Below, piece after piece: positions 21,228-40,557 of a stretch of DNA of 64,000 bases (the first letter of the stretch is position 1; each line of letters begins with the position of its first letter). The stretch comes from Rhizobium sp. 9140 (GTDB lineage Bacteria; Pseudomonadota; Alphaproteobacteria; Rhizobiales; Rhizobiaceae), in the NCBI RefSeq assembly GCF_900067135.1, contig NZ_FJUR01000002.1, positions 1 through 64,000 of the forward strand, read 5' to 3'. The translations under genes were made by a program, and so were the position numbers. A model generated the notes under the pieces. That model did not search any database. It was not told where the DNA came from and saw only the letters and a program-made list of their open reading frames with translations.

Positions 21228-21277
21228 GGCAGCACATTGTCCCGTCGCCGCGTCCACGCCAGCCGGAAGTCTCCAGA

Positions 21278-22600: not shown

Positions 22601-22817
22601 TGTCAGAACGCCGTTTTTCTGGGTCGTTCCCGCATCCGTCTAGAGGGCGCACGAGCCTGGGAAAGGGTTGCGCTGTATTGCTCAGGTGAACATCTATTGC
22701 CGGAGCGCAATATAAGAGCCCACTCAATCAGTCAAAGGACAGAAATCCAATCTCGCACAAGCTCTAATGGAAAACCTTCGCCTGCCTTTCATAGGTTTAC
22801 CCCCGGCGGAGACATTG
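22601..22817. promoter_or_regulatory. Probable promoter region of the main chemosensory operon
   Basis: About 217 bases before the soluble receptor. It contains a separated inverted repeat, TTGCGCT near 22666 and AGCGCAA near 22704, in AT-richer sequence, the only sizeable gap before ten tightly packed genes. I cannot assign -35/-10 elements. Confidence 0.4.
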
Positions 22818-24749
22818 ATGACCCTCGTTAAGAAATACCAGAAGCAGATCAGCGACGCGATGGCCGGCCCGGTGCCGACGCGTGCCGGCAGCGCGTCCAC
22901 CTCCCGCGATGCCGACCATCAGCGCAAGCGCGCCCGCACCCTCGCCAAGCAGCAGCAGGCTGCAGAGCGCATCGCAGCGGCCACGGCCGAGATCGCAGCG
23001 GGCATCAATGAAGCCGCGTCGGCTGCAGAAGAACTGAAGCGCGCTTCCGACCAGATCGCAGCGGGCGCCACGGAGGCTTCCAATGCGGCCCAAGAGTCGC
23101 TCATCGCCTGCCGCCAGATGGGTGACTCGATTACCCGCCAGCTGCGCGCCTCCGAAGTCGGCCAGACAAAGATGGAAAGCACGCAGGCGACCGTCCTGCG
23201 GACGAGCAACGAAGTTGGTGCGCTGATCGCGAACGTCGGCGTCGCTGCTTCGCGCCAGAAGGCCTCCGTCGAGCTGATCGCCGAACTTGAAAAGCAGGCG
23301 GCCAACATCGGCGATATTGTCAAGGCCGTCGGCCGCATCGCCGACCAGACCAACCTTCTCGCTCTCAACGCTGCCATCGAGGCCGCCCGTGCCGGCAAGC
23401 ACGGCAAGGGCTTCGCGGTCGTCGCAGACGAAGTTCGCACGCTCGCCGAGACATCCGAGAAGTCGGCCAAACAGATCGCCGATCTCGTCGGCCAGATCCA
23501 GGTCGATGTGAAGAGCATTACCACCGGCATCAACGCTTCCGCAGAGGCGATCAACGACGAAATCGAGAAAAGCAAGCTCGTGACCGAGCAACTGGAGCAG
23601 ATCCGGCTCGACGCGATCCAGGTGGTCACCGGCATCCGCGAGATCGCTTCCGGCGCCGTCCAGTCGAACGCAGCGGCCCTTCAGGCTCTTAAAGGTTCCG
23701 AAGAGATCGCGGCCGCAGCCGAAGAACAGTCGGCCGCCGCCGAGGAGTCGGCAAAGTCCGTGCAGGAACAGTCGCAGGCGCTGGCACAGTGCGAGCAGAC
23801 TGCGCAGATCTTGACCGAACTGGCCGAAGACCTGAAGAACTCGACCGATATCTCCAAAAGCTCCGAGGAAATGGCCTCGTCGTCCGAGGAACTGTCGTCT
23901 GCAATCCAGGAAATCAACCGCTCCTCGAGCCAGGTGCAGACCGCACTCGACGAAATCCGCCGTGGCTCTCAGGCCTCGGCTTCGGCGACCGCCGAGTCAG
24001 CGGCTGCCATGGGCCAGATCGAGCGCGGGCTGGAAATCGCGCAAGGCCGCGCGACCGAAAGCGTCGATCGACTCACGGCTATGAAGAACCTGCTGGAACG
24101 TAACAAGACCTCGGTCGATGCGCTCATCGGCGGCATCCAGAACTCCGCCACCTCGATCCGCATCAGCATCGGTCAGGTGAAGGATCTCGCCGTCGTCTCC
24201 CGCCGCATCGACAAGATCGTCGAAGCGATTGCCACCGTCTCGGTCCAGACGAACATGTTGGCCGTCAACGGCTCGATCGAAGCCGCGCGTGCCGGCGAGT
24301 TCGGCAAGGGCTTTGCCGTCGTTGCCACCGACATCCGTAATCTCGCTCGAGATTCCGCCGAGAATGCCGACCGGATCAAGGACCTCGTCAAGGCGGTGCA
24401 GGATCAGATCCATGCCGTGAGCCGCGATCTGGACGAGATGGTCGAAGCCGCTCTTAGCGAGGTCGAAAAAGCCAAGACCACGACGGCGAACCTCTTGTCC
24501 ATCGAAGTCGAAGTTGCCGACGTCCAGAACGGCGCGAGTGAAATCCTCGCCAGCGCCAACGAGATCGCGGCCGCCATCGCACAGACCAAACTGGGAATCG
24601 ATCAGATTTCGGCAGCGGCCCAGCAGTCTGAACGGGCGGCCGACGAAGCATCGACTGCCGCACGCCAGCAGTCGCAGGGTGCGGAGGAACTCGTTCGGGC
24701 TGTAGAGGAAATCGCCTCGCTCGCCGACGAACTTCAGACCGCAGCCTGA
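22818..24749 (+). CDS. Cytoplasmic chemoreceptor with two MCP signalling domains
   Basis: A 643-residue soluble receptor with no membrane helix or signal peptide. Start at 22818 ([10 protein letters not shown]) because GGCGGAGA precedes it. Two separate MCP hairpin tips are visible: [20 protein letters not shown] at about residues 171-211 and [20 protein letters not shown] at about 471-511, each followed by GKGFAVVA. Long Ala/Ser/Glu/Gln coiled-coil arms surround them. Tandem signalling domains in a soluble receptor may let one protein bridge two hexagonal arrays or layers, as reported for some cytoplasmic arrays. First gene of an operon containing its own kinase, adaptation enzymes and ParA-like ATPase. 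The signal it reads is unknown. Confidence 0.9.
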
Positions 24750-24761
24750 TCGGATCGCACG

Positions 24762-26306
24762 ATGTCATTCGATCAGGTCATTTCGGACATGGAAGACACG
24801 CCCGAGATCGAGACGAACAGCAATCAGTTCGTCACGTTCTCGGTAGAGGGAGAGATTTTCGCAGCGCCCATGGCGCCGGTTCAGGAAATCATCCGCGTGC
24901 CCAACCTGGCGCAGGTCCCCCTTGCGCCTCCCTCACTCCTCGGCCTCGCAAACCTGCGCGGCCGTATCCTCCCGATCGTCAATCTCCGACGGATCTTCGG
25001 GCTGGCGGACATCGAAGACACGGATGCCACACGCGCGCTCGTCATCAATCTCGGGACGCCGCTCGGTTTCGTGGTCGATCGGGTCGCAAGTGTGATCGCT
25101 GTCGATGAGGCCGATATCGAGCCGGCAGCGGCAATCGGCGCGACCGTCGATGCCCGTCTCCTGACCGGTGTCGTCAAGATGCCGAATGGCGAGATCATCA
25201 TGATCCTCGACTTCGCCCAGCTGATCGCCCGGGAATTCGTGGGAACGCCTATGGATGGCCGTATCTCCGACGTCGCTATCGCGGGCGATATTTCGTCTGC
25301 GGCGGGCGACGACGAGGAAGAGATCGATGCTGACGAGATCCAACTCGTCTCCTTCACCGTCGAAGGCCAGGAATATGCGGCGGATATCGCCGCCGTTCAG
25401 GAAATCGTCCAGATGCCGGAACGGGTGGTGGCGATCCCCAACGCGCCTCTGCACGTGCTCGGCCTCATGACCCTGCGGGAAAGGCTTTTGCCGCTTGTGT
25501 CGCTGCGGGTTCTCCTTGGTCTTCCTGAAAAACAGGAGAACGAGGACCAGCGCATCATCGTTCTCGGGCTCGGCGAAGGCCAGGCCGTCGGCGTCGTTGC
25601 CGACAGTGTGGACGAGGTCCTGCGGGTACCGCGCGGTCAGGTCGAAACGCTCCCGGCCATCCTCGCGAGCCGTGGTGGGCTCGAGGAGATATCGGCTGTC
25701 TGCCGTCTGGACGGTGGCAAGCGGCTCGTTTCGATCCTCGATACCGACCGGATGTTCGCCAATGCCGCCATGAAAACCGCGTTGGCCAAGGCAAGCGCGA
25801 TGGAGACGCACATGACCGACGCCGACAGCGACATGGACGATCACGATATCGCGGAGGACGAGGAACAGGTCGTCGTTTTCCGCCTGGGCAGCGAGGAGTT
25901 CGGCGTGCCGATCGCCGCGGTGCACGAGATCGTGCGGATCCCGGAAAGCCTGACGCGGGTTCCCACGGCACCGTCCTTCGTGGAAGGCGTCATCAACCTT
26001 CGCGGCGCCGTTCTCCCGGTCATCGACCAGCGTCGGCGACTGAACCTCGAGGACATCGAGCGGAACGACCGCCAGCGCATCATGGTCTACGCGCTGAACG
26101 GCCGGCGGACCGGCTTCATCGTGGATAGCGTGACGGAGGTTCTGAAAATTCCGCGGAACGCAATCGAACGCTCGCCCCGGCTCTCGTCGGACCAGCACCG
26201 CATCCTCGGACGCGTCGCGAACCTCGAGAAGCAGAAGCGCATGATCATGTTGATGGATCCCGATGCTCTCCTCTCGGAGACGGAACTCGCGGATCTGGAG
26301 GCGTAG
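24762..26306 (+). CDS. cheW: Triple-domain CheW coupling protein
   Basis: A 514-residue chain of three consecutive CheW domains at about residues 22-160, 190-325 and 366-505. Each has the same landmarks: VQEIIRVPNLAQVPLAPPSL with LGLANLRGRILPIVNLR in the first; VQEIVQMPERVVAIPNAP and LRERLLPLVSLR in the second; VHEIVRIPESLTRVPTAPSF and INLRGAVLPVIDQRR in the third. Acidic linkers separate them. Most CheW proteins are single domains, so one molecule could cross-link several receptor trimers and kinases. It starts 12 bases after the tandem receptor, which fits a multivalent scaffold for that receptor. Confidence 0.92.
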   Translation: MSFDQVISDMEDTPEIETNSNQFVTFSVEGEIFAAPMAPVQEIIRVPNLAQVPLAPPSLLGLANLRGRILPIVNLRRIFGLADIEDTDATRALVINLGTPLGFVVDRVASVIAVDEADIEPAAAIGATVDARLLTGVVKMPNGEIIMILDFAQLIAREFVGTPMDGRISDVAIAGDISSAAGDDEEEIDADEIQLVSFTVEGQEYAADIAAVQEIVQMPERVVAIPNAPLHVLGLMTLRERLLPLVSLRVLLGLPEKQENEDQRIIVLGLGEGQAVGVVADSVDEVLRVPRGQVETLPAILASRGGLEEISAVCRLDGGKRLVSILDTDRMFANAAMKTALAKASAMETHMTDADSDMDDHDIAEDEEQVVVFRLGSEEFGVPIAAVHEIVRIPESLTRVPTAPSFVEGVINLRGAVLPVIDQRRRLNLEDIERNDRQRIMVYALNGRRTGFIVDSVTEVLKIPRNAIERSPRLSSDQHRILGRVANLEKQKRMIMLMDPDALLSETELADLEA

Positions 26307-26314
26307 TCGAGCAG

Positions 26315-27442
26315 ATGCCACTGAAGGTTCTTGTCGTGGATGATTCCGCGCTGATGCGAAAGCATCTGACGACTCTGCTGAAAGCGGAAGGTTTCGAGGT
26401 GCAGATCGCCCGCACGGGGCGGGAGGCCTTGACGGAGCTGTCCTTCTTCAAGCCCGATGTCGTGACGCTCGATATCAACATGCCCGAAATGGACGGGCTG
26501 ACGGCGCTGGCGCACATCATGACGGAGCGGCCAACGCCGACCGTCATGGTGTCGTCCCTGACGGAACGGGGAGCCCTGGCAACGCTGGAGGCTCTGGCGC
26601 TCGGGGCCGTGGACTACATCGCCAAACCGGGCGGAACGATCTCGCTGTCAATCGACGCGATCTCCAGCAGTATCGTCCAGAAGGTGAGGGCCGCCTCCGA
26701 GGCACGCATTCGGGGACGTTCCGGGCGCGGCGATCGCTACAGGGCGGCGGCACCGGCCCCGGCGCCGATATCTGCTTCGGCATCGGCGGCGGCTTCCGCG
26801 CGGGCCTCTCTCGTGAAGGACGCGACACCTCGCAAGCGGAGCTATCCGGCCAGCGGCAGCCCGTTCGGCCTTGTGCTGATCGGCGTTTCCACAGGCGGTC
26901 CACGCACGCTCGAGGAGGTTTTGCCTTTCTTGCCGGCCAATCTGCCATGGCCTGTGCTGGTCGCCCAGCACATGCCGCCATCGTTCACCGCGTCGCTGGC
27001 GTCCCGCCTGAACGGGCTCTGTCCGCTGGAGGTCCGCGAAGGGGTCAGCATGGAGGAACTGCGACCTGGGAATATCTACATAGCGCGCGGCGGCACCGAC
27101 ATGGTCGTCGCACAGCGCGGCAGCAAGCTCGTCATCGTCAACCGGCCAGAGTCTCCGGGCCACACCTGGCATCCCTCCGTGGAACTCCTGGTGCAATCGG
27201 CGGCCGAACTGGTTCCGGCTGAAAAGATCATCGCCGTCCAGTTGACGGGAATGGGACACGACGGTGCTCAGGCGATGACGGACCTGAGGAAAGCCGGCGG
27301 ACGGACGATCGCCGAAAGCGACGAGACGGCCGTTATCTTCGGGATGCCGGCGGAACTGATCAAGCGCGGCGGCGCCGAATGCGTGCTTCCCAGCGGGAAG
27401 ATCGCGCAACAGATTCGGCAGTGGATCGGCCGAGCATCATGA
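26315..27442 (+). CDS. cheB: Chemotaxis protein-glutamate methylesterase/deamidase CheB
   Basis: A 375-residue CheB with an N-terminal receiver (VVDDSALMRKHL; phospho-acceptor Asp53 in TLDINMPEMDG), an Ala/Pro-rich linker, and a C-terminal esterase domain. The catalytic triad is visible as the Ser in GVSTGGPRTLEEVLP, His in AQHMPPSFT and Asp in GMGHDGA. It removes methyl groups from receptor glutamates for adaptation. It starts eight bases after the triple-CheW gene. No CheD is present in the operon. Family assignment is secure. Confidence 0.95.
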   Translation: MPLKVLVVDDSALMRKHLTTLLKAEGFEVQIARTGREALTELSFFKPDVVTLDINMPEMDGLTALAHIMTERPTPTVMVSSLTERGALATLEALALGAVDYIAKPGGTISLSIDAISSSIVQKVRAASEARIRGRSGRGDRYRAAAPAPAPISASASAAASARASLVKDATPRKRSYPASGSPFGLVLIGVSTGGPRTLEEVLPFLPANLPWPVLVAQHMPPSFTASLASRLNGLCPLEVREGVSMEELRPGNIYIARGGTDMVVAQRGSKLVIVNRPESPGHTWHPSVELLVQSAAELVPAEKIIAVQLTGMGHDGAQAMTDLRKAGGRTIAESDETAVIFGMPAELIKRGGAECVLPSGKIAQQIRQWIGRAS

Positions 27443-27462
27443 ACCGGAGAGGATAGATCGCC

Positions 27463-28098
27463 ATGCCGATCATGAAACCGAAAACGCGTGGGCCTTCCGA
27501 GGCCGGTGACGTTGCGAACAGGCAGCTATCGTTTGCAGAACTCGTCAAAGGTCTCACGAGCGGGGACCACGCCGTGCGCCTTGGCGCCGTCCGAAGCCTC
27601 GGTATTCAGGGCGGCACACCGGCCATCGACGTTCTCTGCCAGCATCTCGTCATCGACAGCGATCGCTCGACACGGGACGTCATCGCGGTCGAACTCGCCC
27701 GGCTTGGGGGTGAGGCGGTCGTTGAAGGTCTGATGCCGCTTCTTCGGTCCGATGACGCGGCATTGCGCAACATCGCCATCGACATTCTGAAGGAGTTGCC
27801 GACGGATGTCGCTCCGCGGATGGAAGCGCTGCTCGACGACCCCGACCCGGATGTCCGCATCTTCCTTGTCAACGTGCTGGAAGCCCTGCGTCACCCGGCG
27901 GTCGAGGACTGGCTCGTCGCCGTCATCACCATGGACACCAATGTCAACGTGGTCGGCACGGCGCTCGATCTCCTCAACGAGGTCGGGTCCACGGCCTCCG
28001 TCCCCGCCCTCCGCGCAGCCATTGCCCGGTTCCCTGATGAGCCCTTCGTGACCTTCTCCGCTGAAAATGCGCTTCGTCGGATCGGGAGCGCTGCATGA
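27463..28098 (+). CDS. HEAT-repeat protein of the chemosensory operon
   Basis: A 211-residue, all-helical protein with about five HEAT-like repeats: AVRLGAVRSLG, STRDVIAVELARLGGEAVVE, ALRNIAIDILKELP, DVRIFLVNVLEAL and VVGTALDLLNEVG, spaced about 31 residues apart. HEAT repeats make curved scaffolds for protein binding. It sits between cheB and cheR, overlaps cheR by ATGA, and has GGAGAGGAT ahead of its ATG. HEAT proteins recur in some alphaproteobacterial chemosensory operons, but the exact role is not known to me; likely a scaffold or a regulator of the methylation enzymes. Confidence 0.8.
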   Translation: MPIMKPKTRGPSEAGDVANRQLSFAELVKGLTSGDHAVRLGAVRSLGIQGGTPAIDVLCQHLVIDSDRSTRDVIAVELARLGGEAVVEGLMPLLRSDDAALRNIAIDILKELPTDVAPRMEALLDDPDPDVRIFLVNVLEALRHPAVEDWLVAVITMDTNVNVVGTALDLLNEVGSTASVPALRAAIARFPDEPFVTFSAENALRRIGSAA

Positions 28099-28952
28099 GT
28101 GCGGTCAAGGCCATTACCCCGGATGATTTCGCGCGCTTCTCGGAATATTTCTATCGCAAGACCGGCATCCACTTCGACGACAGCAAGCGCTACTTCGTCG
28201 ATCGCCGGCTGACCGACCGGATCTCCGCAACCGACAGCCAGGACTTCAACACTTATTTCCGCCTGCTTCGGCTCAATCCCTCGGGCAGCGAAACGCAGGT
28301 CCTGACCAATCTGATGACGGTCAACGAGACCTACTTCTTCCGGGAAGCCTATCAGTTCGAGTGTCTGACGGACTTCATTCTCGCGGAAGTCGTTCGTTAC
28401 AAGCGGGCAGGCGACCCGATCCGCATCTGGTCCATGCCGTGCTCCTCGGGCGAGGAACCTTATTCCATCGCCATCCATCTGATGGAGAAATGGGCACATA
28501 TCGACCGGTACGACGTCGAGATCTTCGGCTCGGATATCGATACGACCATCCTCGCCAATGCGCAGACGGGCATCTATTCGCCGCGATCCGTGCAGGGCGT
28601 GCCGCCGAACCAGATGAAGAAGTATTTCACCAAGCTCCGGGACGGGAACTGGCAGATCTGCCAGGACCTCAGGAACTCGGTCGAATTCGTGCGGACCAAT
28701 CTGAACGAACCTGCCGATCTCGCGCGGTTCAGCAGGGTCGACGTCATCTTCTGCCGCAACCTCCTCATCTACTTCGATGACATGTCGCGACGCGCGGCGG
28801 CCGAAGCTTTCTATGAAACGATGAGCCCGGGCGCCTTCATCTGCCTCGGTCACTCGGAATCGATGAGCCGAATTTCCAGCCTGTTCAAGGTGCGCCGCTT
28901 CGGCAGCACCATCGTCTACCAAAAGCCGTTGCCGGGAGAAGCCTCCGCATGA
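28095..28952 (+). CDS. cheR: Chemotaxis protein methyltransferase CheR
   Basis: A 285-residue SAM-dependent methyltransferase acting on receptor glutamates. The N-terminal helical domain carries YFVDRRLTDRI and TVNETYFFRE. The SAM site is IWSMPCSSGEEPYSIAI (about residues 112-128), followed by FGSDIDTTILANA, a VEFVRTNL strand and the VDVIFCRNLLIYF motif, all standard for CheR. Both ends overlap neighbours by ATGA (HEAT gene, cheY), showing tight translational coupling. No TPR tail is present. Confidence 0.95.
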   Translation: MSAVKAITPDDFARFSEYFYRKTGIHFDDSKRYFVDRRLTDRISATDSQDFNTYFRLLRLNPSGSETQVLTNLMTVNETYFFREAYQFECLTDFILAEVVRYKRAGDPIRIWSMPCSSGEEPYSIAIHLMEKWAHIDRYDVEIFGSDIDTTILANAQTGIYSPRSVQGVPPNQMKKYFTKLRDGNWQICQDLRNSVEFVRTNLNEPADLARFSRVDVIFCRNLLIYFDDMSRRAAAEAFYETMSPGAFICLGHSESMSRISSLFKVRRFGSTIVYQKPLPGEASA

Positions 28953-29320
28953 AACATGTCCTGATCATCGACGATGCGACGACGGTGCGCATGTACCATC
29001 GCCAGATCCTCTCAGAGGCCGGTTTCGCGGTTGACGAGAGCATCAACGGGGTCGAAGCGCTCGAAAAGGCGCTGACCAAGCGCTACGACCTGTTCGTCGT
29101 GGACGTCAATATGCCGAAGATGGACGGCTACCGGTTTCTGCGCGAACTGCGTTCGAATGCGGACGTCCATCAGGCGCCCGCCGTGATGGTATCGACCGAG
29201 GCCGAGGCCAAGGATCGCGATGCCGCCTGGGCTGCCGGGGCCAACTACTACATGACGAAGCCGACCAAACCGGGTGCGCTGACGCGCGTCGCCCACCTTC
29301 TGACGGGAGAAGCCCAATGA
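28949..29320 (+). CDS. cheY: Chemotaxis response regulator CheY
   Basis: A 123-residue stand-alone receiver. Acidic pocket IIDDA (residues 6-10), phospho-acceptor Asp52 in FVVDVNMPKMDGYRF, Thr in MVSTEAE and Lys in MTKPTKPG. It overlaps cheR upstream and cheA downstream by ATGA. Because the operon's receptor is cytoplasmic and its context includes KaiBC, the output need not be the flagellar motor; that cannot be resolved from sequence. Confidence 0.93.
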   Translation: MKHVLIIDDATTVRMYHRQILSEAGFAVDESINGVEALEKALTKRYDLFVVDVNMPKMDGYRFLRELRSNADVHQAPAVMVSTEAEAKDRDAAWAAGANYYMTKPTKPGALTRVAHLLTGEAQ

Positions 29321-32091
29321 GTCCTCTTCTCGAACAATTCCTGATCGAAGGTCGCGATTTTCTCGAGCAGATCGGCCAGAAGCTCCTCTCTCTCGAGGAA
29401 GATCCCGGCAATGAAGACATCATCGGCGAGATCTTCCGGGCCGTCCACACGCTGAAGGGCAATTCCGGGCTTTTCGACATGCCGAGCCTGACGAGCGTCG
29501 TTCATGCTGCCGAGGATCTTCTGGACCGTGTGCGCGACCGCACGATGGAGATGACTCCGGAGCTGACGGATGCGCTTCTCGAAGCCATGGACTTCGTCAA
29601 TCGCCTTTTCGAGGACGTCGAGAATCATGGCGCGATCCGCCCGGAATATTCCGCACAATCTGCCGATATCGCCATGCGGCTGCGCAACCTCCTGCCGGCC
29701 CGCGAGCCACAGGCCGTCGGCCTGTTCGAGGAGGAACCGTCCTCCGTGGAGCCCCCAGCCGACTGGTCCTGGCTCGGTCGTATCCCGGATACAGAGCGGC
29801 TTGCCGCGTTCGAGGCCCTTTCGACACCAGCCTCCGTCTTCGTCGTTCGCTACAGGCCGGAGCCGGAATGCTTTTTCAAGGGTGAAGATCCGGTTCTTCT
29901 CGTGCGAACGGCACCCGGCATCTTCCTCTTTGACATCACCACGCTGGAGCCATGGCCCGATGCCGCGTCGCTCGACGTTTACCGTTGCAACCTGCAATTC
30001 GATCTTGTCAGTTCCGGGAGCCGCGAGGAGGTCGAGCACCATTTCCGCTATGTGCGGGATCAGACGGCGTTCTATACGGTCCCGGCGGTAGCCCTCGCTC
30101 TTCCGTCCGGCGAAGGTGGGGCAAAGACGGATGGCGCGGCGGAGGTTGGCATGATCGCCCCAATCTATCTGGAACAGGCGCGGGACAGTCTGGAGACCGG
30201 AGATCTGGACGGCCTGCTCGCCGTCACGAGCACCGCGCTCGACATGATCAATCCCGCACTCCATGCCGCGTCCGCGCTTCGCTGGGTGAAACGGCTGGTG
30301 GAGGCAGGCGCAGGCGTTGGCCCCGTCGCATTCTTGATCGACGCACTTTCTCGCAACGCCTTGCCGGACTGGCAGTCCTATGCCCGTCGCGTGGATGGTC
30401 CGCAGGCCCAAGCGACCATCCCATCCCGGCAGGCGCCCGTCGAAGAACAGGTCTCAACGCGGACGCTCGCCGATCCGAGACAGGCACGCGTCGCGGATGA
30501 TCTGGTCAAAACCCAGATCATCATGCTCCAGCAGCCAAGCCGCCCGGTCGAGCTTGCCGGACGTATTCGCTCAGTTCGAAACGTCATGGCCAACCTGCTG
30601 AGTGCCATGGGTGAAACCGGCGTCCCTGTGTCGCTCGACGAAGCCACTCGCATTGCGCTCGACGGTGCCGACGCGGCCCCGCTGATCGCCTTCCTCGACG
30701 GCGTCGCCTTTTCCGGTGAGACGGCCCGTGAATTTATCGAGGCTCCGACCCTTGAGCCGCCGCTGGCGCTCAGGGAGACCGCGCCTCGTGAAACCGTTCT
30801 CGAAGGGGCATCGAATTCGGCTGCCAATGCCCCTTCACAGCCGGCTCCGCGCGCCGCGATGCTCGACGCCGGCGATCCGGCCAGGCGGACGGGCGATGCG
30901 CCTGGCCCCGACCGCGGTGTCCGGGTTCTCAAAGTGCCGCAGGAAAAGGTCGATCGCCTTATGGATCTCATCGGCGAGATGGTCGTCGCCAAGAACGCGC
31001 TGCCCTATCTTGCCGCCCGTGCCGAGGATCATTTCGGCTCCCGGGATCTCAGCCGGGAGATCAAATCGCAATATGCGATCATCAACCGGATCGCCGAGGA
31101 AATGCAGGACGGCATCATGCAGGTGCGCATGCTGCCGGTCGGCGCCGTATTTCAGCGTTTTCCGCGGCTGGTGCGCGACGTTTCGCGCCAGCTCGGCAAG
31201 CTGGTGCGGCTGGTGGTCGAAGGCGAGGAAACCGAAGCCGACAAGAACATCGTGGAATCTCTTGCCGATCCGATGATCCACATCCTTCGCAACAGCCTCG
31301 ATCACGGGCTGGAAACGCCGGAGGTGCGCCAGGCTCAGAACAAGCCGGAAGAGGGGCGTCTGACGGTGCGCGCCAGCCAAGAAGGCGACCGCGTTCTCAT
31401 CGAGATCGAGGACGACGGCAAGGGCATCGATCCCGAGGTCATCAAGCGAAAGGCTTTTGAAAAGGGCCTGATCGATGAACAGCGGCTGGACACGTTGACC
31501 GATGCCGAAGCGGTGCAGCTCGTCTTCGCCGCCGGCTTCTCGACCGCCGACCAGATCTCCAACCTGTCCGGCCGCGGCGTCGGCATGGATGTCGTCAAGT
31601 CAAGCCTCGAAAAGGTTGGCGGCCAAGTGCAGCTGACCAGCATCAAGGGCAAGGGAACGCGCATTCTCCTGTCGCTGCCTTTGTCGATGAGCGTGTCCAA
31701 CGTGATGATGGTACACATCGCCGGCCAGCAATACGGCGTGCCCATGGAAAACGTGATGGAAACGGTGCGCGTCGCCGGCAAGGACATTCACGTCTTCAAG
31801 GAGCAGCGAACTGCCGTCCTGCGCGGCCGGATCGTGCCGCTCTACGATGCCAATAAGCTGCTCTCCCGCGACAGCATTCCCCAGCCGAACGAGGACGGGG
31901 AATATGCCGTTCTCGTCGTACGCGTCGGCGGGCAGACCGTCGGCATCATCGTCGATGGCTTCGCCCAGACGATCGACGTCATCCTCAAGCCGCTCGAGGG
32001 GCCGCTTGCCTGCATCTCCGGCTTCAGCGGCAGTGCCCTGCTCGGCGATGGCAGCGTTCTGCTCGTGCTCAACCTGAAGGAACTCCTCTGA
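29317..32091 (+). CDS. cheA: Chemotaxis histidine kinase CheA with unusually long linker
   Basis: A 924-residue CheA, compared with about 650 in enteric bacteria. The Hpt domain holds phospho-His44 in FRAVHTLKGNSGLF. The dimerisation and kinase core begins near residue 535 (RVLKVPQEKVDRLMDLIGEM) with the N-box HILRNSLDHGLE, G1 IEDDGKGIDPE and G2 GRGVGMDVV. A C-terminal CheW-like domain ends with LVLNLKELL. Between Hpt and core lie some 400 residues. The first half is folded-looking (PEPECFFKGEDPVLLVRTAP, LEPWPDAASLDVY), and a second part is helical. No receiver domain. ATGA overlap with cheY. The linker probably replaces the CheY-binding P2 domain or adds a sensor. Confidence 0.95.
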   Translation: MSPLLEQFLIEGRDFLEQIGQKLLSLEEDPGNEDIIGEIFRAVHTLKGNSGLFDMPSLTSVVHAAEDLLDRVRDRTMEMTPELTDALLEAMDFVNRLFEDVENHGAIRPEYSAQSADIAMRLRNLLPAREPQAVGLFEEEPSSVEPPADWSWLGRIPDTERLAAFEALSTPASVFVVRYRPEPECFFKGEDPVLLVRTAPGIFLFDITTLEPWPDAASLDVYRCNLQFDLVSSGSREEVEHHFRYVRDQTAFYTVPAVALALPSGEGGAKTDGAAEVGMIAPIYLEQARDSLETGDLDGLLAVTSTALDMINPALHAASALRWVKRLVEAGAGVGPVAFLIDALSRNALPDWQSYARRVDGPQAQATIPSRQAPVEEQVSTRTLADPRQARVADDLVKTQIIMLQQPSRPVELAGRIRSVRNVMANLLSAMGETGVPVSLDEATRIALDGADAAPLIAFLDGVAFSGETAREFIEAPTLEPPLALRETAPRETVLEGASNSAANAPSQPAPRAAMLDAGDPARRTGDAPGPDRGVRVLKVPQEKVDRLMDLIGEMVVAKNALPYLAARAEDHFGSRDLSREIKSQYAIINRIAEEMQDGIMQVRMLPVGAVFQRFPRLVRDVSRQLGKLVRLVVEGEETEADKNIVESLADPMIHILRNSLDHGLETPEVRQAQNKPEEGRLTVRASQEGDRVLIEIEDDGKGIDPEVIKRKAFEKGLIDEQRLDTLTDAEAVQLVFAAGFSTADQISNLSGRGVGMDVVKSSLEKVGGQVQLTSIKGKGTRILLSLPLSMSVSNVMMVHIAGQQYGVPMENVMETVRVAGKDIHVFKEQRTAVLRGRIVPLYDANKLLSRDSIPQPNEDGEYAVLVVRVGGQTVGIIVDGFAQTIDVILKPLEGPLACISGFSGSALLGDGSVLLVLNLKELL

Positions 32092-32327
32092 TGACAATCC
32101 GATTTCTGAAGACGAAGGCCGTTCTATCGAGGCATTGCACGGTGGAGGAAGCCGAAGACATCGTGCAATGGCTTATCAACAATCCGAAGGGAGAGTTGAA
32201 TATGCGCGAGGTGACGCATCTGCATACTGCGTCCCTGCAGGCGATCGCGGCAACTGGCAACCGTATTTCGGTACTGCCGGACGATCCATTCTACACGCAG
32301 GCGCTGCAACGTCTCGGGCGTGCCTGA
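32091..32327 (+). CDS. Small STAS-like protein of the chemosensory operon
   Basis: A 78-residue protein overlapping the cheA stop by ATGA. EEAEDIVQWLINNPKGELNM, then REVTHLHTASLQAIAATG, follows the strand-helix pattern of STAS domains, with HTAS near the usual phosphorylatable Ser. It is shorter than a normal STAS (about 100 residues). Small STAS-like proteins of this kind appear in chemosensory operons of alphaproteobacteria. A role as a binding partner of the array or of the ParA next door is inferred. Confidence 0.65.
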   Translation: MTIRFLKTKAVLSRHCTVEEAEDIVQWLINNPKGELNMREVTHLHTASLQAIAATGNRISVLPDDPFYTQALQRLGRA

Positions 32328-32358
32328 TGAAAACCGTCATAAAGTGCGGACGCGGCAG

Positions 32359-33180
32359 ATGAGCGGGCCCATGGACGAGGCTAAGGACGGGAACGAGGAC
32401 GCGGCTTCGCCCTTCGTGATTGCCGTTGCCAACAGGAAGGGCGGCACGGGAAAGACGACGACGGCGGTCAATCTGGCAGCCGGTCTCGTTCGCCGTGGCC
32501 TGCGCACCCTGCTGATCGATTTCGACAGCCAGGGTCATGCCGGGCTGGCGTTCGGCGCCGTTGCAGGGCGAAACGAGCCAACAGCGCACGGGGTTTTCTC
32601 GAACGGTCCGGAGGCGCTGGAACGCGCCATCATCGCGACCGCGGGAAAGACGGGATGGCCGGATCTGGTACTTGCAGACACGAGGTCGCCGCATCCCGGC
32701 GGGGTCGTGACACCGGACCTGCTGGTGCGCGCGCTCGACGTGCCGCGCATCCGCGAGAACTACGACGTGGTGGTGATCGATACGCCGCCCTCGCTCGATG
32801 CGCTGATGGTGACCGCCCTGACGGCGGCCAATGCGGCGATCGTGCCGTTCGTGCCGCACCCGCTGTCCATCGAGGGCGTGCGGCAGTTCAGCCGTGTCTT
32901 CTTCTCCGTGCGGCTGGGTGCAAAGCCGCGTCTCCGGCATGTCGCTCTGCTACCTATCATGGCCAGTCCGCACGTTCTCGTGCACCGGCGGATGATCGAG
33001 TCGCTGCGTCAGGAATTCGGCAACGACCGTATCCTCGACCCCATCCGGTCGGATATCCGGCTGGCCGAAGCCTTCGGAGCCCATCAGCCGATCTTCGACT
33101 ATATGCCATCCGGGCGGGGCGCGCAGGACTATGCGGCGCTGACGGCATCCATCGTCACGCGCTGGAAACTCGCTTCATGA
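32359..33180 (+). CDS. ParA/PpfA-like ATPase for positioning the chemosensory cluster
   Basis: A 273-residue ParA-family ATPase: deviant Walker A KGGTGKT at residues 27-33 (ANRKGGTGKTTTAVNLAAGL), Walker A' LLIDFDSQGHAGL, and Walker B VVVIDTPPSLDALM. A longer start at GTG 32320 overlaps the STAS-like gene. There is no ParB or centromere nearby, and it is the last gene of a chemosensory operon. That matches PpfA of Rhodobacter sphaeroides, which spaces cytoplasmic chemotaxis clusters on the nucleoid through the receptor N-terminus. The soluble receptor here makes the same role likely. The ATPase family is certain; the positioning role is inferred from synteny. Confidence 0.88.
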   Translation: MSGPMDEAKDGNEDAASPFVIAVANRKGGTGKTTTAVNLAAGLVRRGLRTLLIDFDSQGHAGLAFGAVAGRNEPTAHGVFSNGPEALERAIIATAGKTGWPDLVLADTRSPHPGGVVTPDLLVRALDVPRIRENYDVVVIDTPPSLDALMVTALTAANAAIVPFVPHPLSIEGVRQFSRVFFSVRLGAKPRLRHVALLPIMASPHVLVHRRMIESLRQEFGNDRILDPIRSDIRLAEAFGAHQPIFDYMPSGRGAQDYAALTASIVTRWKLAS

Positions 33181-33358
33181 CCTATCCCCAAATCCGGAAA
33201 ATAGGCCTCTTTCGAACTTTAATCTAAATTAGAATACATGAAATATCTTGTCTCGCTGATCTCGGAAACACCCCGCAATTCAGCACATCAGGGCGGCATA
33301 CCTCTTATCGTTCCGGTGGCGTTCACCCCGGCGGCGATCGAACAGAAGCGAGAACGGC

Positions 33359-35086
33359 ATGACCAATGTATTCAACGGCGCCTCCGGCAAGGCGACGACG
33401 GGCATCATAGGCCTCGACGAGGTGATGCAAGGCGGCCTGCCCAAAGGACGGACGACCCTGATCGAGGGGGGGCCGGGCTGCGGGAAGACGGTTCTTGCCT
33501 TGCAGATGCTGGTCAACGGCGCCAATCTGTCCGGAGAGCCCGGCATCTTCGTCGCATTTGAGGAAAGCTCGCAGCGGATCGCCCAGAATGCAGGCACATT
33601 CGGCTGGGACCTCGAAAGCCTGCAACGCGACAACCTGTTCTTCATCGATGCCCAGCCGAGCTACGATCTGCTCCAGTCCGGCCCGTTCGATCTCGGCGGC
33701 ATGCTCGCCGCCCTCGACGTGAAGGTGAAGGAGATGGGGGCCAAGCGCGTCGTCTTCGATGCGATCGACATGGTTCTCGATCTTTTCGATCATCGACAGG
33801 CCGCCCGGAACGAAACCTACCGGCTTCATCAATGGCTGAACGATCGCGGGCTGACGGCGGTGATTACGGCGAAGGCGAGCCCTTTGCGCAATGGCGGTAC
33901 GTCGGAGGCGCTGGAGTTTCTGCAATTCATGGTCGATTGCTCTATCTTCCTGCGCCACGACATGGTGGAAGGGACATCGCAGAGGAATATCCGCGTCGGC
34001 AAGTTCCGGGGCTCGTCCTTCGAGGAAAATGCGACGCCTTTCGGGATCGGGCCGAGAGGCATCGAGGTGGCCTATGGCCGCAACGCCGAAGATTCCAAGC
34101 GCAGGGCGTCTACCGAGCGTCTGTCGAGCGGCGTCAAACGGCTGGATACCATGCTCGACGGCGGCTACTATCGAGGTGCCGGCATCCTGCTGACCGGCTC
34201 GCCCGGCACGGCCAAGACCACCCTTGCCGGTGCCTTTGCGGTCGCGTCCTGTGAGCGCGGCGACAAGACGCTGTTCGTGACGCTGGATTCGCCGGAAGAA
34301 GAGATTTTACGCAATCTCTCGGTGGTCGGCGTCGATCTTGAGCCGCAAGTTGCGTCCGGTATGCTGCTCTTCAAGACGATACGATCGACGACGGCGAGTG
34401 CCGAAATTCACCTGATGCGGATCCGGGATATCGCGCGGTCTCATGGTGCACGGTGCCTGGTCATTGACCCCATCTCTGCCTTGTCGAAGTCCGGCAACCT
34501 CGGCACCGCACGGAACGTCGTCGAGCGGTTGATCGACTGGTCGAAGGCGGAGGAGATCACGCTGCTCTGCACGAGTCTTCTAGAAGGGGACAATCCGCTC
34601 GCCGAGAGCACTGCTGTCCAGATTTCGACGTTGGCCGATACGTGGATCCATCTCAACTACCTCGTCCATGCCGGCGAACGCAACCGCGCGCTGTCGATCA
34701 TCAAATCGCGCGGCAGCAATCATTCCAATCAGGTCCGCGAGCTTATCCTTAGTGGCTCGGGCATCTCGCTTGCCGACGTCTTCACCGCGGGTGGCGAAGT
34801 TCTCATGGGCGCCATGCGCTGGGAGAAGGAGCGTGCCGCACAGCAGGAGGAAGCCGAGCGCGAGACGCAGATGAAGCGTCGGCGGATAGAGCTTTCAGCG
34901 GAGGCCGCCGCCCTTCAGGGCCGCATCGACGCCTTGCAGCAGGAGTTGGCCGACAAGCACGAAGATGTCGATCGGCTGAACTCCGGCATGATGAAAAGCG
35001 GCGCTGCCGCGGTCGATAGTCTGGTCACGTTGCGCCAGTTGCGCCGGGGGGACGTCATCGACACCGTATCGCAAGGCGAACCGTGA
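33359..35086 (+). CDS. kaiC: KaiC-like circadian/timing ATPase
   Basis: A 575-residue double-domain RecA-type ATPase. CI domain: Walker A GGPGCGKT (37-44) and catalytic Glu pair FEES (67-70). CII domain: Walker A SPGTAKTT (281-288) and LDSPEEE (309-315). The QIST at 421-424 aligns with the phosphorylated Ser/Thr pair of cyanobacterial KaiC, so autophosphorylation capacity appears kept. After CII (about residue 485) the chain continues as a charged coiled coil instead of the short KaiA-binding tail. It overlaps kaiB by GTGA. In anoxygenic and non-photosynthetic bacteria such KaiBC sets act as timers or stress regulators without KaiA. Confidence 0.92.
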   Translation: MTNVFNGASGKATTGIIGLDEVMQGGLPKGRTTLIEGGPGCGKTVLALQMLVNGANLSGEPGIFVAFEESSQRIAQNAGTFGWDLESLQRDNLFFIDAQPSYDLLQSGPFDLGGMLAALDVKVKEMGAKRVVFDAIDMVLDLFDHRQAARNETYRLHQWLNDRGLTAVITAKASPLRNGGTSEALEFLQFMVDCSIFLRHDMVEGTSQRNIRVGKFRGSSFEENATPFGIGPRGIEVAYGRNAEDSKRRASTERLSSGVKRLDTMLDGGYYRGAGILLTGSPGTAKTTLAGAFAVASCERGDKTLFVTLDSPEEEILRNLSVVGVDLEPQVASGMLLFKTIRSTTASAEIHLMRIRDIARSHGARCLVIDPISALSKSGNLGTARNVVERLIDWSKAEEITLLCTSLLEGDNPLAESTAVQISTLADTWIHLNYLVHAGERNRALSIIKSRGSNHSNQVRELILSGSGISLADVFTAGGEVLMGAMRWEKERAAQQEEAERETQMKRRRIELSAEAAALQGRIDALQQELADKHEDVDRLNSGMMKSGAAAVDSLVTLRQLRRGDVIDTVSQGEP

Positions 35087-35364
35087 TATCCGCGCCCGTG
35101 CATTTTCGTCTCTATGTGGCAGGCACGGCCCCGCATTCGCAGCGGGCCGCAGCCAACCTGCGCGCGTTCTGCGCAGCGCATCTCGGCGATCGACATGAAA
35201 TCGAGGTCATCGATCTCTTCGGCGATCCCCTCCGCGCCCTGACAGACAAAGTTCTCCTGACGCCGACGCTCGTCGTCGACAACTCGGGTACGATCCGGCG
35301 GATCGTCGGCGATCTCAGCGAAACGTCCATGTTGCTGGACTTCGTCGAAGGTGGAGCGACGTGA
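35083..35364 (+). CDS. kaiB: KaiB-like protein
   Basis: A 93-residue thioredoxin-fold KaiB: FRLYVAGTAPHSQRAAANLR, then EIEVIDLFGDPLRAL, VLLTPTLVVD and a C-terminal VGDLSETSMLLDFVE. The LTPTLV segment is the family's fold-switching region. GTG start at 35083 overlaps the kaiC stop, and its own stop overlaps the kinase gene (GTGA), so kaiC, kaiB and the kinase are made together. KaiB binds phosphorylated KaiC and sequesters output proteins in cyanobacteria; here it may gate the adjacent kinase. Confidence 0.9.
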   Translation: MISAPVHFRLYVAGTAPHSQRAAANLRAFCAAHLGDRHEIEVIDLFGDPLRALTDKVLLTPTLVVDNSGTIRRIVGDLSETSMLLDFVEGGAT

Positions 35365-37079
35365 GCGCGCGACAGGCGCTCACCGAAAGCGGAACGGACG
35401 AACTCACGCTGCTCATCGAACTGTTGCAGGAGACGCAGCAGCGCATCATGACGCTGACGGACGGCCTGGTCGATGCCGTCATGCCTGCCTCCGGGAACCT
35501 GTTGCTTCTGCCGGAAACACAGACCCATTTCCGCGATCAGGCGATGGCGTATCAGGCCTTCGCGGCCGAGCGTACCGCCATTCTCGATGCACTGCCGGCC
35601 CATGTCGCGCTTTTGAGCGCGACGGGTGAGATTCGGACCGTCAATGCCGTGTGGCTGGCGTTCGCCGATCAGCTCTCGCCCGTGCCGGGACTGGCGGTCG
35701 GCACGGTCTACGCCGATTTCTGGAGCACGCCGGAGGCGTTCGGTACCCTTGATGTAGACGCTGTCCGCTCGTCCGTCGCCGCCGTTCTCCGCCGCGAACG
35801 CCGGCTGCTCGACGTCGAATATTGCCTGCATCTTCGTCCCTCCAAGCCCTGGTTCCGTCTTGTCGTCGCGTCGCTGGCCGACGATGCGGAACGCGGCGCC
35901 GTCGTCATGCACATCAATATCACCGAGCAGAAGGCGAACGAGGAGAAGGTCCGGCAGATGCAGCGTCTCGATGCGCTGGGTCAGCTGACCGGGGGCGTGG
36001 CACATGATTTCAACAATCTGCTCATGGTCATTATGGGGAACGGCGAGGCCCTTCTCAGCAGTCTTGCAGAAGACGAGCAGCGGCGCGACTGGGCGGAACT
36101 GATCGTTCTCGCGTCCGAGAAAGGTGCCGCTCTCACCAATCGCCTGCTGGCTTTTGCAAGACGTCAAGCTCTCGTGCCGGAAACCATCGACCTGTCGGCC
36201 CTGCTCGCAGGTGTCGTCCTGCTCCTTCATCGCACGATCGGTGAACATATTACGATCACGGTTCCCGCCTTCAACGGTCCCTGTCACGTCCGCGCCGATC
36301 GCTCCCAGCTCGAAAACGCCGTCATCAACCTCTGCATCAATGCGCGGGACGCCATGCCGCACGGCGGCTCCATCACGCTCAATCTGGCAAGCCGCAGCAT
36401 TCTTGCAGAGGACAAACCGCCTGCCACCGACCTGCCGCCCGGAGACTATGTCGTCCTAACGGTCTCCGATACGGGCAGCGGCATGGCTGCCGCAACGTTG
36501 ATGCGGTCCTGTGAACCGTTCTTCACGACGAAGGCAATGGGGAAGGGGACGGGCCTCGGCCTCAGCGTCGTCTACGGCTTCATCAAGCAGTCGAGTGGCG
36601 CGATCTCTATCGACTCCGTCCTGGGTGCGGGAACCGATGTTCACCTTTGGCTTCCATGCGTTCCGAAACCGGTGGCGAACGTGGAAAGCGGACCCAAGGC
36701 ACGGGACGGCGTCAAGGGCCAGCGAATCCTGCTGGCGGAAGACGATCCGCTGGTCGCCCGCTCCGTTCGTCAGCAACTGATCGGCTTCGGCTATCAGGTC
36801 GTCAGTGTTTCGAATGGTTCCGAGGCGCTAGACTACCTTGCGCAGGATGCGGCGTTCGATCTGGTTTTTACTGACATCGTCATGCCGGGCGGCGTGAGCG
36901 GGCTCGAACTGGTCCGTGACGCCGGGCGTCTCTATCCGCATCTGAAATTCCTGCTGACATCGGGCTATGCCGATGCGCTCGACGATGCCTTGCGGGCGCG
37001 TCTCGCTGGCAGCCTTCTCGCCAAACCCTACAAGCGCTCCGCACTGGCGGAGAAACTCGACATCTTGCTCCGGCCATGA
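35361..37079 (+). CDS. PAS-containing hybrid histidine kinase of the kai operon
   Basis: A 572-residue soluble kinase with an N-terminal helical segment, a PAS-like sensor (about residues 68-190), and a HisKA domain with phospho-His215 in GGVAHDFNNLLMVI. The ATPase domain has N-box NAVINLCINARDAMP, G1 VSDTGSGM and G2 GKGTGLGLSVV. A C-terminal receiver carries Asp505 in LVFTDIVMPGG. No membrane helix. It is co-translated with kaiB. In KaiBC operons of other bacteria an adjacent kinase is the probable output reader, as SasA is in cyanobacteria; the link here is by synteny. The receiver may relay to the response regulator encoded 75 bases downstream. Confidence 0.92.
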   Translation: MSARQALTESGTDELTLLIELLQETQQRIMTLTDGLVDAVMPASGNLLLLPETQTHFRDQAMAYQAFAAERTAILDALPAHVALLSATGEIRTVNAVWLAFADQLSPVPGLAVGTVYADFWSTPEAFGTLDVDAVRSSVAAVLRRERRLLDVEYCLHLRPSKPWFRLVVASLADDAERGAVVMHINITEQKANEEKVRQMQRLDALGQLTGGVAHDFNNLLMVIMGNGEALLSSLAEDEQRRDWAELIVLASEKGAALTNRLLAFARRQALVPETIDLSALLAGVVLLLHRTIGEHITITVPAFNGPCHVRADRSQLENAVINLCINARDAMPHGGSITLNLASRSILAEDKPPATDLPPGDYVVLTVSDTGSGMAAATLMRSCEPFFTTKAMGKGTGLGLSVVYGFIKQSSGAISIDSVLGAGTDVHLWLPCVPKPVANVESGPKARDGVKGQRILLAEDDPLVARSVRQQLIGFGYQVVSVSNGSEALDYLAQDAAFDLVFTDIVMPGGVSGLELVRDAGRLYPHLKFLLTSGYADALDDALRARLAGSLLAKPYKRSALAEKLDILLRP

Positions 37080-37154
37080 CCGGCAGACGCCGAACACTCA
37101 ACGAGCGCCCGATTGCAGGACGATATGCATAGAGAGAAAGCAGCATGAACTGAC

Positions 37155-37856
37155 ATGGATATTCTGATCATCGAAGACGACGTTCTCATTGCGAAGACAA
37201 TGAAAAGCACGTGGCCGGTTGCCGGCGACACGCTGCAGGTCGTCTCGACCTACGCGCAATCCCTCAGCCTGATCACGGGGCCGGAGTTGATGCTGTTCGA
37301 CGCCGTGGTGCTCGACATTCATCTCCCGGACGGCGATGGTCTCGGCATCCTTCGCACGATCCGGGCGCATTCGACGGTGCCGATCGTGATGATTTCGGGG
37401 ACGGGTACGCCCGATACGCGTGCGGGCGTCTTCGATGTCGGTGCGGACGACTACCTGATGAAGCCCTTCTCCGTTCGAGAGTTGCAGGCCCGGGTGGCGC
37501 GACTGGTCACCGTCCGCAAGGCCGCTCAGCCGGAAGGGCTCACGGGCGCCTTCCTGGTCGATCGTGTCGAATGCGATCTCCAGATCCGGCATCTCATTCT
37601 CGGGACGGCCGTCGAATCGCTGACGGACGCCGAAGCCCGTATTCTCGGTTACCTCCACGCCAATGCCGGCAGGACCTGCAGCAAATCGGCCATCTACAAG
37701 CATGCCTTCTTCCGTGCGTTCAATCCTGCGGACAAGACGCTCGATGTCTATGTCGGACGCATCCGACGGAAACTTTCCGCGCTCGATGCTCAGAGCGCCC
37801 TCCATCTTCAGACGGCGCGCGGGGTCGGCTACCGGCTGGAAGCGTCGCAGCGCTGA
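37155..37856 (+). CDS. OmpR-family winged-helix response regulator
   Basis: A 233-residue transcription factor. Receiver: IIEDDVLIAKTM, phospho-acceptor Asp54 in AVVLDIHLPDGDGLG, Lys in LMKPFSVREL. DNA-binding winged helix in the last 100 residues: ESLTDAEARILGYLHANAGR, then YVGRIRRKLSALD and the final LQTARGVGYRLE. It follows the kai-operon kinase by 75 bases on the same strand and is the likely DNA-binding output of that kinase, analogous in position to RpaA of the cyanobacterial clock. The target genes are unknown. Confidence 0.9.
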   Translation: MDILIIEDDVLIAKTMKSTWPVAGDTLQVVSTYAQSLSLITGPELMLFDAVVLDIHLPDGDGLGILRTIRAHSTVPIVMISGTGTPDTRAGVFDVGADDYLMKPFSVRELQARVARLVTVRKAAQPEGLTGAFLVDRVECDLQIRHLILGTAVESLTDAEARILGYLHANAGRTCSKSAIYKHAFFRAFNPADKTLDVYVGRIRRKLSALDAQSALHLQTARGVGYRLEASQR

Positions 37857-38045: not shown

Positions 38046-38096
38046 TGTCAACGGCGGAGTAAAATCCTGCCACGCGGCGGCGCAAAAGTCGGCCAC
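38046..38096 (+). repeat. Left terminal repeats of the IS21 element
   Basis: The outer repeat (38046-38074) begins TGTCAACGGCGGAGTAAAAT. The inner repeat (38077-38096) is CGGCGCAAAAGTCGGCCAC-like, matching its right-end partner but for one base. These are the likely IstA binding sites. Confidence 0.75.
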
Positions 38097-38177
38097 TTGT
38101 GGCGCGCGCATGAGACCGCCGGGAGGGCTTAGGCCCGAGCGGGGGTCTCATGCGCGCGTTGCGATTTTCGAAGGGCG

Positions 38178-38936
38178 TCAGCCGGCCTTTCGGGCGCGGC
38201 TTTGGGCGAGACGATAGCTGTCGCCGTTCATCTCGAGGATGCTGACGTGATGGGTGATGCGGTCGAGCAAAGCGCCGGTCAGGCGCTCGGACCCCAAGGT
38301 TTCCGTCCATTCGTCAAAAGGAAGGTTGCTGGTGATCAGGGTCGCGCCTCGCTCGTATCGTTGCGAGATCAGCTCGAACAGCAATTCCGCGCCGGTCTTT
38401 GACAGCGGCACGAAGCCCAGTTCATCGATGATCAACAGCTGGTAGGCGGCCATCTGCTTCTGGAACCGGATGAGACGCCGCTCGTCGCGCGCCTCCATCA
38501 TCTCGCTGACCAGTGCGGCCGCTGTCGTGAACCCAACGGACAGGCCCTTCTGGCAGGCGGCCAGGCCGAGGCCGAGCGCCACATGGGTCTTGCCCGTGCC
38601 GCTGGGGCCGAGAGCGATAACGTTCTCCCTGCGCTCGATCCATTCGCAGCGCGCCAGTTCCAGCACCTGCATCCTGTTCAGCTTTGGGATGGCGGCGAAG
38701 TCGAAACTGTCGAGGCTTTTGACGACCGGGAACCTGGCCGCCTTGATGCGACGCTCGACCTTGCGACGGTCCCGTTCGATCATCTCCCGCTCGGCAAGCC
38801 GGGTGAGGTATCCGACATGATCGACGCCTTCGGTGGCGCACAGCCGGGCCAGCTTCTGGTACTCGCGCTGGAAACTCGGCAGCTTCAGGGTTTTGAGATA
38901 ATGGGTGAGAAGGATCTCGGGTGCTTGGGTGTTCAT
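38178..38936 (-). CDS. istB: IS21 helper ATPase IstB
   Basis: A 252-residue AAA+ protein that assists the IstA transposase in target choice. Walker A GPSGTGKTHVALGLGLAA near residue 109, Walker B LLIIDELGFVPLS, sensor TLITSNLPFDEW and ERLTGALLDRITHH are all standard for the family. ATG 38936 overlaps the istA stop as ATGA; the upstream in-frame start at 39065 lies inside istA and is rejected. Length and motifs are intact, so it should be active. Confidence 0.95.
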   Translation of the reverse strand: MNTQAPEILLTHYLKTLKLPSFQREYQKLARLCATEGVDHVGYLTRLAEREMIERDRRKVERRIKAARFPVVKSLDSFDFAAIPKLNRMQVLELARCEWIERRENVIALGPSGTGKTHVALGLGLAACQKGLSVGFTTAAALVSEMMEARDERRLIRFQKQMAAYQLLIIDELGFVPLSKTGAELLFELISQRYERGATLITSNLPFDEWTETLGSERLTGALLDRITHHVSILEMNGDSYRLAQSRARKAG

Positions 38937-40429: not shown

Positions 40430-40476
40430 GGTATAGATCCCCAGGCCCTCCTGCGCTCATTGCAGAAGAGAAATAG

Positions 40477-40551
40477 GTGGCCGACTTTTACGCCGCCCGA
40501 AGCGGGACAATCCCGCCGCTACCGTGGTCTAATTTTGCACCGCCGCTCTCA
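40477..40551 (-). repeat. Right terminal repeats of the IS21 element
   Basis: The inner repeat (40477-40497, GTGGCCGACTTTTACGCCGC on the plus strand) is the inverse of the left inner repeat. The outer repeat (40522-40551) ends in GCCGCTCTCA. The pair brackets the transposon end. Confidence 0.75.
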
Positions 40552-40557
40552 CCGAAG
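40552..40557. repeat. Right target-site duplication of the IS21 element (CCGAAG)
   Basis: Exact copy of 38040-38045, directly after the CA end of the element. Confidence 0.8.

Follow-up and report, generated by a model that had tools for sequence, protein, structure and literature searches.

The window analysed here, a 64,000-nucleotide stretch of Rhizobium sp. 9140 (contig NZ_FJUR01000002.1, positions 1 to 64,000), carries two gene sets side by side on the forward strand: a chemosensory array operon with a ParA-family ATPase (20859-33180), and an operon encoding KaiC, KaiB, a PAS hybrid histidine kinase, and an OmpR-type response regulator (33359-37856). By its tandem-signalling receptor and its three concatenated CheW domains (CheW3), the first set is classed as a complete cytoplasmic chemosensory array of class F9. 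The neighbourhood is real and conserved in one lineage, and it is absent from most of the relatives examined. The reading favored here, tentatively and at a probability of roughly 0.4, is that the F9 array operon and the KaiC-KaiB-kinase-regulator operon are evolutionarily coupled and that the two would be joined at transcription by way of the kinase-regulator pair. The features are the following.

20859-21227, + strand: CheY1, single-domain response regulator (PF00072, 4.1e-24; start codon present)
21278-22600, + strand: MCP1, receptor whose N-terminus has a hydrophobic stretch, with a single MCP signalling domain (PF00015, 1.7e-18)
22818-24749, + strand: MCP2, soluble receptor of DosM type, two signalling domains (PF00015, 2 stretches)
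24762-26306, + strand: CheW3, three concatenated CheW domains (PF01584, 3 stretches, 3.6e-102)
26315-27442, + strand: CheB methylesterase with receiver (PF01339, PF00072)
27463-28098, + strand: HEAT-repeat protein (PF13646, 3 stretches)
28095-28952, + strand: CheR methyltransferase (PF01739, PF03705)
28949-29320, + strand: CheY2 (PF00072, 2.1e-26)
29317-32091, + strand: CheA kinase with Hpt, long linker, dimerisation, ATPase, and CheW domains (Pfam)
32091-32327, + strand: predicted STAS-fold protein of 78 amino acids (AlphaFold model, Foldseek)
32359-33180, + strand: ParA-family ATPase (PF13614, 2e-31; Walker motif KGGTGKTT intact; reading frame open from a GTG at 32320)
33181-33358, + strand: ParA-KaiC gap, 178 bp, kaiC-proximal part conserved with Rhizobium NFR03
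33359-35086, + strand: KaiC, two RecA-like domains and a C-terminal extension (PF06745, 2 stretches, 9e-93)
35083-35364, + strand: KaiB (PF07689, 1e-13; nearest solved relative 8fwj_M)
35361-37079, + strand: PAS hybrid histidine kinase with a C-terminal receiver (HisKA, HATPase_c, Response_reg; HDFNN at residue 215)
37155-37856, + strand: OmpR-type response regulator (PF00072, PF00486)

All array genes are on the + strand and have intact domains, as do all the genes that an earlier note on this DNA had named between 22818 and 37856. The cytoplasmic array with ParA proposed in that note belongs to class F9; a receptor carrying two signalling domains and a run of three concatenated CheW domains are reported as features unique to this class (PMC9321776). 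The operon begins at 20859, not at 22818. CheY1 and MCP1 also belong to the set, and their homologues are present at 74 and 76, respectively, of the 80 F9 loci compared, mostly downstream of the STAS gene. These loci are the best 80 of 259 CheW3 relatives, with full 10-kb flanks in 47 of them, and homologues were counted at 60 bits or more. The intergenic gaps are 50 bp between CheY1 and MCP1, 166 bp between MCP1 and MCP2 (measured to an open reading frame start at 22767), and -4 to +31 bp from MCP2 through ParA.

MCP1 is a membrane receptor by its hydropathy peak (1.99, from residue 10). MCP2 is cytoplasmic judging by hydropathy alone, with no 19-residue window above 1.07, and has two IEAAR tips. 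Its frame is also open from 22767, and the start at 22818 (the ATG of MTLVKK), which the earlier note had used, matches relatives better. The CheY2 protein is identical in NFR03. CheA has an HTLKG motif at residue 44 and no P2 domain by Pfam. For the 78-residue protein after CheA, no Pfam STAS match is found in the window protein, and sub-threshold STAS_2 matches are found in three relatives. A STAS fold is supported by its AlphaFold (AF2) model, which has a predicted local distance difference test score (pLDDT) of 91.5 and whose best PDB match by Foldseek is an anti-sigma-factor antagonist (E 9.3e-4, template modelling score (TM) 0.57), in agreement with the STAS-like call made earlier.

The array resembles cluster I of Vibrio cholerae (DosM VC1403, CheW VC1402, CheA VC1397), in which a tandem soluble receptor, a triple CheW, CheA, and a membrane receptor are described (PMC7534058). 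Cluster I is reported to form a double-layered cytoplasmic array, and the same source gives the function and input of F9 as unknown. It is set apart by its description there from the present locus, which has ParA in the operon and kaiC-kaiB-kinase-regulator adjoining. CheOp3 of Rhodobacter sphaeroides likewise encodes a soluble receptor in one operon with PpfA, a ParA-like positioning ATPase (PMC3964821). While CheOp3 has TlpT and a split CheA3/CheA4, the window has a DosM-type receptor, CheW3, and one CheA. The ParA of the window fits the function demonstrated for PpfA in R. sphaeroides (PMC3964821). A short basic N-terminus (VKK-type, then QRKRART) is common to DosM-type receptors and may be a partner peptide of ParA; the VKK-type N-terminus is seen in loci both with and without a ParA match in the flanks examined.

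KaiC is found in the examined flanks of three of the 80 F9 loci, belonging to Rhizobium NFR03, Rhizobium G21, and an uncultured proteobacterium (locus L047). In NFR03 and G21, gene order and strand are the same as in the window. In L047 (4925-6963), KaiC-KaiB of the Glu-Glu type lies upstream of the F9 cluster, and no such kinase-regulator pair separates the two. L047 is a possible second, independent che-kai neighbourhood; a single case is too weak as independent proof. In a sample of 394 Rhizobiaceae genomes, CheW3 (E<=1e-90) is found in eight and KaiC (E<=1e-60) in 20, and four have both. The genes are adjacent in three of these four and on separate contigs in the fourth (G082). One of the three adjacent cases is the window genome, and the coordinates identify the other two as NFR03 and G21, so that none of them is a new case. 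KaiC at least 78% identical to that of the window is found in three of the 394 genomes, in all of them adjoining F9, and the other matches listed are at most 40% identical. No further close KaiC is found in 385 Alphaproteobacteria (E<=1e-110; two at 43%) or 299 Pseudomonadota (E<=1e-140).

Some additional contigs carry relatives of these genes. Besides the G21 contig, those of 24118, 36305, and 388814 bp are each assigned, by identical size of the longest contig, a relative of CheW3, of KaiC, and of the regulator, and relatives of CheW3 and the regulator fall on contigs of 32910, 104117, and 592698 bp by the same measure. No KaiC of the latter three contigs is among the 120 matches listed, which is little informative as the KaiC of NFR03 is not separately listed either. 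In the KaiC tree, one clade of eight (support 0.998) contains the che-adjacent KaiCs, whether that adjacency is known or inferred, along with two of unknown context. Small trees were built for each of the proteins CheW3, KaiC, and regulator, and all three group the window with NFR03 (supports 99-100). Chance adjacency in one strain is ruled out by NFR03 and G21 and indirectly by the shared contig sizes; the two blocks are thus not neighbours in this strain only, a possibility that the earlier note had raised against itself.

The genes were compared by the synonymous substitution rate (dS) and the ratio of nonsynonymous to synonymous rates (dN/dS). Against NFR03, dN/dS is 0.00-0.18 across 15 genes (KaiC 0.041, KaiB 0.076, kinase 0.127, regulator 0.051), and by these ratios the array and kai genes are under purifying selection. 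Against G21, where CheA, ParA, KaiC, and the kinase could be aligned in part, dS exceeds 1 in 12 of the 15 genes, with 0.98 for CheB, 0.87 for CheY2, and STAS not computable. Adjacency, order, and strand have thus been kept past a dS of 1. This argues against the explanation that two independent accessory modules on a secondary replicon have been inherited together without functional coupling. So does the close KaiC subclade, which is seen only beside F9 in the 394 Rhizobiaceae.

The kinase-regulator pair indicates where the two operons may meet. Few relatives of the regulator are listed: of 4944 candidates that share words with it, 50 reach E<=1e-50. When 50 of the 80 F9 genomes were scanned for KaiC (E<=1e-50) and the regulator (E<=1e-40), a regulator orthologue was found in three, each time beside F9: NFR03, G21, and Methylosinus sp. 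Sm6. In Sm6, MCP1, the regulator, and the kinase adjoin F9, and KaiC is on another contig. In M. trichosporium OB3b, too, kinase and regulator adjoin F9, and the 27.5 kb read there contain no match to KaiC or KaiB. Nodes that place Methylosinus inside the che-kai regulators have supports of 35 and 53, and no claim is drawn from them. Because Methylosinus retains the kinase and regulator beside F9 without KaiBC, the pair is likely the hinge between the two operons. Its output would be transcriptional, which appears likelier than the action of KaiC on array methylation that the earlier note had suggested.

The same loci bear on a direct coupling, in which KaiC or KaiB would bind the receptor, CheA, or the kinase and set the output or methylation of the array. 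Adjacency is in its favor. Also in its favor is the input of DosM, which is unknown because 98% of DosM homologues lack sensory domains in one survey (PMC9321776). The Methylosinus pair beside F9 without KaiBC, the absence of KaiC near most F9 loci examined, and the changed catalytic pair of KaiC described below all speak against such binding, which we consider improbable.

The kai operon is of a known kind, as the earlier note had stated. A kaiC-kaiB-PAS/histidine kinase operon is described in Rhodopseudomonas palustris and Rhodobacter (Cereibacter) sphaeroides (PMC4794148), and the order KaiC, KaiB, histidine kinase is the same in these, as also in an annotated C. sphaeroides record. The operon of the window differs in the Asp-Ser pair of the KaiC CII domain, in its hybrid kinase and OmpR regulator, and in the adjoining F9 array. 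KaiC, KaiB, and the kinase genes overlap by 4 bp each, and the gap between kinase and regulator is 75 bp. The PAS_4 match of the kinase (22.8 bits) is just below the cut-off of 23.1. The nearest solved relatives of KaiC are 8dba and 8fwi of R. sphaeroides, and the alignment runs into the C-terminal extension of 8dba. In R. sphaeroides this extension is reported to link two hexamers through a coiled coil (PMC10076222).

KaiC retains Glu-Glu in the CI domain and the Ser-Thr phosphosites in CII (QISTLADTW motif). The CII pair that matches E318/E319 of S. elongatus is Asp-Ser instead of Glu-Glu. Among the window protein and its 120 best matches listed, a set biased to query similarity, the pair is Asp-Ser in 116 of 121 and Asp-Thr in five. 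In 28 other KaiC rows, it is Glu-Glu in 20, Asp-Glu in three, and unreadable in five due to misread frames. It is reported that in S. elongatus rhythmicity is lost in the E318D mutant and phosphotransfer in E318A (PMC2777353). The earlier note had assumed a KaiC phosphorylation cycle; KaiC, KaiB, and the phosphosites are present, but the standard cycle is doubtful here because the CII catalytic pair is Asp-Ser. Two members of the Asp-Ser/Asp-Thr subclade among the 120 best matches listed are labelled Chthoniobacteraceae or Chthoniobacterales. Methylotuvimicrobium buryatense 5G (locus L154, 7323-11837) has a KaiC relative missing much of CII, followed by KaiB and a PAS-GAF-GGDEF-like protein (domains assigned by eye). 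The N-terminus of the window kinase resembles that of this last protein, by eye and by alignment.

Ties of KaiC to signalling are also found in archaea, where KaiC-family ATPases, including those with inactivated iKaiC domains, are proposed to be signalling hubs, tied to signalling domains and in some cases altered in their active sites (PMC5847659). By that description these are archaeal fusions, in contrast to the bacterial KaiBC operon that adjoins the array here. As far as their accounts of KaiC and a chemotaxis operon go, two archaeal papers (PMC5847659, PMC5852551) describe no KaiBC operon beside a chemosensory one. We could not find the combination of array and kai operon in print in the open-access papers searched; the parts are each known.

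Several observations weigh against the coupling of the two operons. Only the three F9 loci named above, of the 80, have KaiC in their flanks, and one of these KaiCs is of a different type. KaiC is carried by 11 of the 50 F9 genomes scanned, and in only three of the 11 is it beside F9. Close F9 relatives in Xaviernesmea, Gellertiella, Rhizobium CG5, and RU36D have no KaiC at E<=1e-50. A general che-kai unit across genera is therefore rejected on the flanks examined, which are full at 10 kb in 47 of the 80 loci; of the conserved che(ParA)-kai neighbourhood that the earlier note would take as support for a functional unit, the extension beyond one strain stands and the generality does not. Adjacency on the 24118-, 36305-, and 388814-bp contigs is inferred from shared size, which makes that argument indirect. 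In the three gene trees (CheW3, KaiC, regulator) the inner nodes are weak, and the order of the two most distant contigs, 36305 and 388814 bp, differs from tree to tree. All KaiCs tested in one published survey had kinase activity (PMC5520375); Asp-Ser members may or may not have been among them.

The control regions add to these points. The ParA-KaiC gap is 178 bp in the window and 196 bp in NFR03. Its last 118 bp are 85% identical between the two and its first 60 bp 58%, while the dS of the kaiC gene is 0.56. Because the kaiC-proximal 118 bp are conserved, this block suggests a regulatory or leader segment and hence separate control of kaiC. A consensus scan of 32900-33500 gave no promoter- or terminator-like site, which is little informative as 0.3 of each is expected by chance. 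Of the separating terminator and promoter that the earlier note had set against its proposal, no site is thus seen, and the conserved block nevertheless hints at separate control. The kinase-regulator pair may also be a mobile cassette, because the same kind of pair occurs without F9 or kai on plasmids: distant regulators (51-53%) lie near PAS kinases on one plasmid of R. gallicum and two of Sinorhizobium, an EAL regulator is present on two of these three, and no F9 or kai match is found in 18.7 kb around each regulator. On the plasmids of R. gallicum and S. numidicum (L161, L162), the cassette consists of an OmpR-type regulator, an EAL regulator, and a PAS kinase.

Independent inheritance of two modules draws on the same facts, namely that kai and F9 are mostly apart in the loci examined and that a conserved block precedes kaiC. 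In addition, 64 of 2781 species are reported to have the full F9 class, whose clusters are sporadic and have been transferred many times (PMC9321776). The window contig (C2) is 1.17 Mb, beside another contig of 3.67 Mb in a genome of 5.43 Mb and seven contigs. Set against the retention past a dS of 1 and the KaiC subclade confined to F9, these facts leave independent inheritance quite possible. Fifteen other kai loci, 12-20 kb each, were also read (14 of 17 other Rhizobiaceae genomes, three with short contigs being left out, and one further). They have no CheW3, HEAT, CheR, STAS, or ParA match. Their isolated matches are one MCP domain in L135, two CheY in L136, and weak CheB, CheY, or kinase-domain matches in L140 and L143.

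We place moderate confidence in a functional linkage of kai and array, as far as gene content and conservation can indicate it. In the coupling at transcription that is favored here, the DosM-type receptors with CheW3 and CheA would form an array inside the cell, and ParA would place it on the nucleoid. The KaiC ring may serve as a slow ATPase and KaiB-binding switch that tracks the energy state of the cell, not as a clock of the standard autophosphorylation type. The PAS hybrid kinase would read KaiC and drive the OmpR-type regulator, which may control genes including those of the array or of its outputs. Kai and array would thus meet at transcription and not by KaiC touching the receptors. 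A stronger version, in which a ParA-positioned F9 array has a built-in KaiBC timer, with a non-autokinase KaiC ring supplying or gating the input and a shared kinase-regulator readout in one circuit, is unlikely.

In Rhizobium G21, ParA and KaiC are encoded in one continuous open frame (L013, approximately 17620-20100; P0123, 820 amino acids). This frame is what suggests that KaiC might act with ParA on array positioning or the timing of segregation. The ParA part of G21 changes reading frame near its start, and the genome is rated 86% complete, so that the frame may be a fusion or an assembly error; it was set aside as proof of joint action due to these frame problems. ParA and KaiC are separate genes in both the window and NFR03, and their joint action appears highly improbable.

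Other features of the window and genome are as follows. An IS21 insertion (approximately 38046-40552, with an istB/istA pair at 38178-40429, - strand) lies after the regulator, and at this point about 2.5 kb is missing from the collinear sequence of NFR03. Two more chemoreceptors with CHASE3 and dCache sensor domains are found at 13751-16015 (- strand) and 44432-46672 (+ strand). No Rfam match at the gathering threshold is found anywhere in the window. Of flagellar genes in the genome, FlhA was found, and there are two additional CheA genes. A search with the FliM model matched nothing; rhizobial FliM is divergent. On these findings a role of CheY at the flagellar motor is no more than possible.

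Outside cyanobacteria, little has been settled about what KaiBC systems do for the cell. The retained genetic link described here makes the function of the F9 array and the role of non-cyanobacterial KaiBC testable in one place. Methylosinus offers a natural version of such a test, with the kinase and regulator beside F9 and no KaiBC there. The Asp-Ser KaiC subclade raises the question of whether KaiC rings can work as switches without the usual autokinase. If the built-in timer were true, time or energy state and array signalling would form one circuit.

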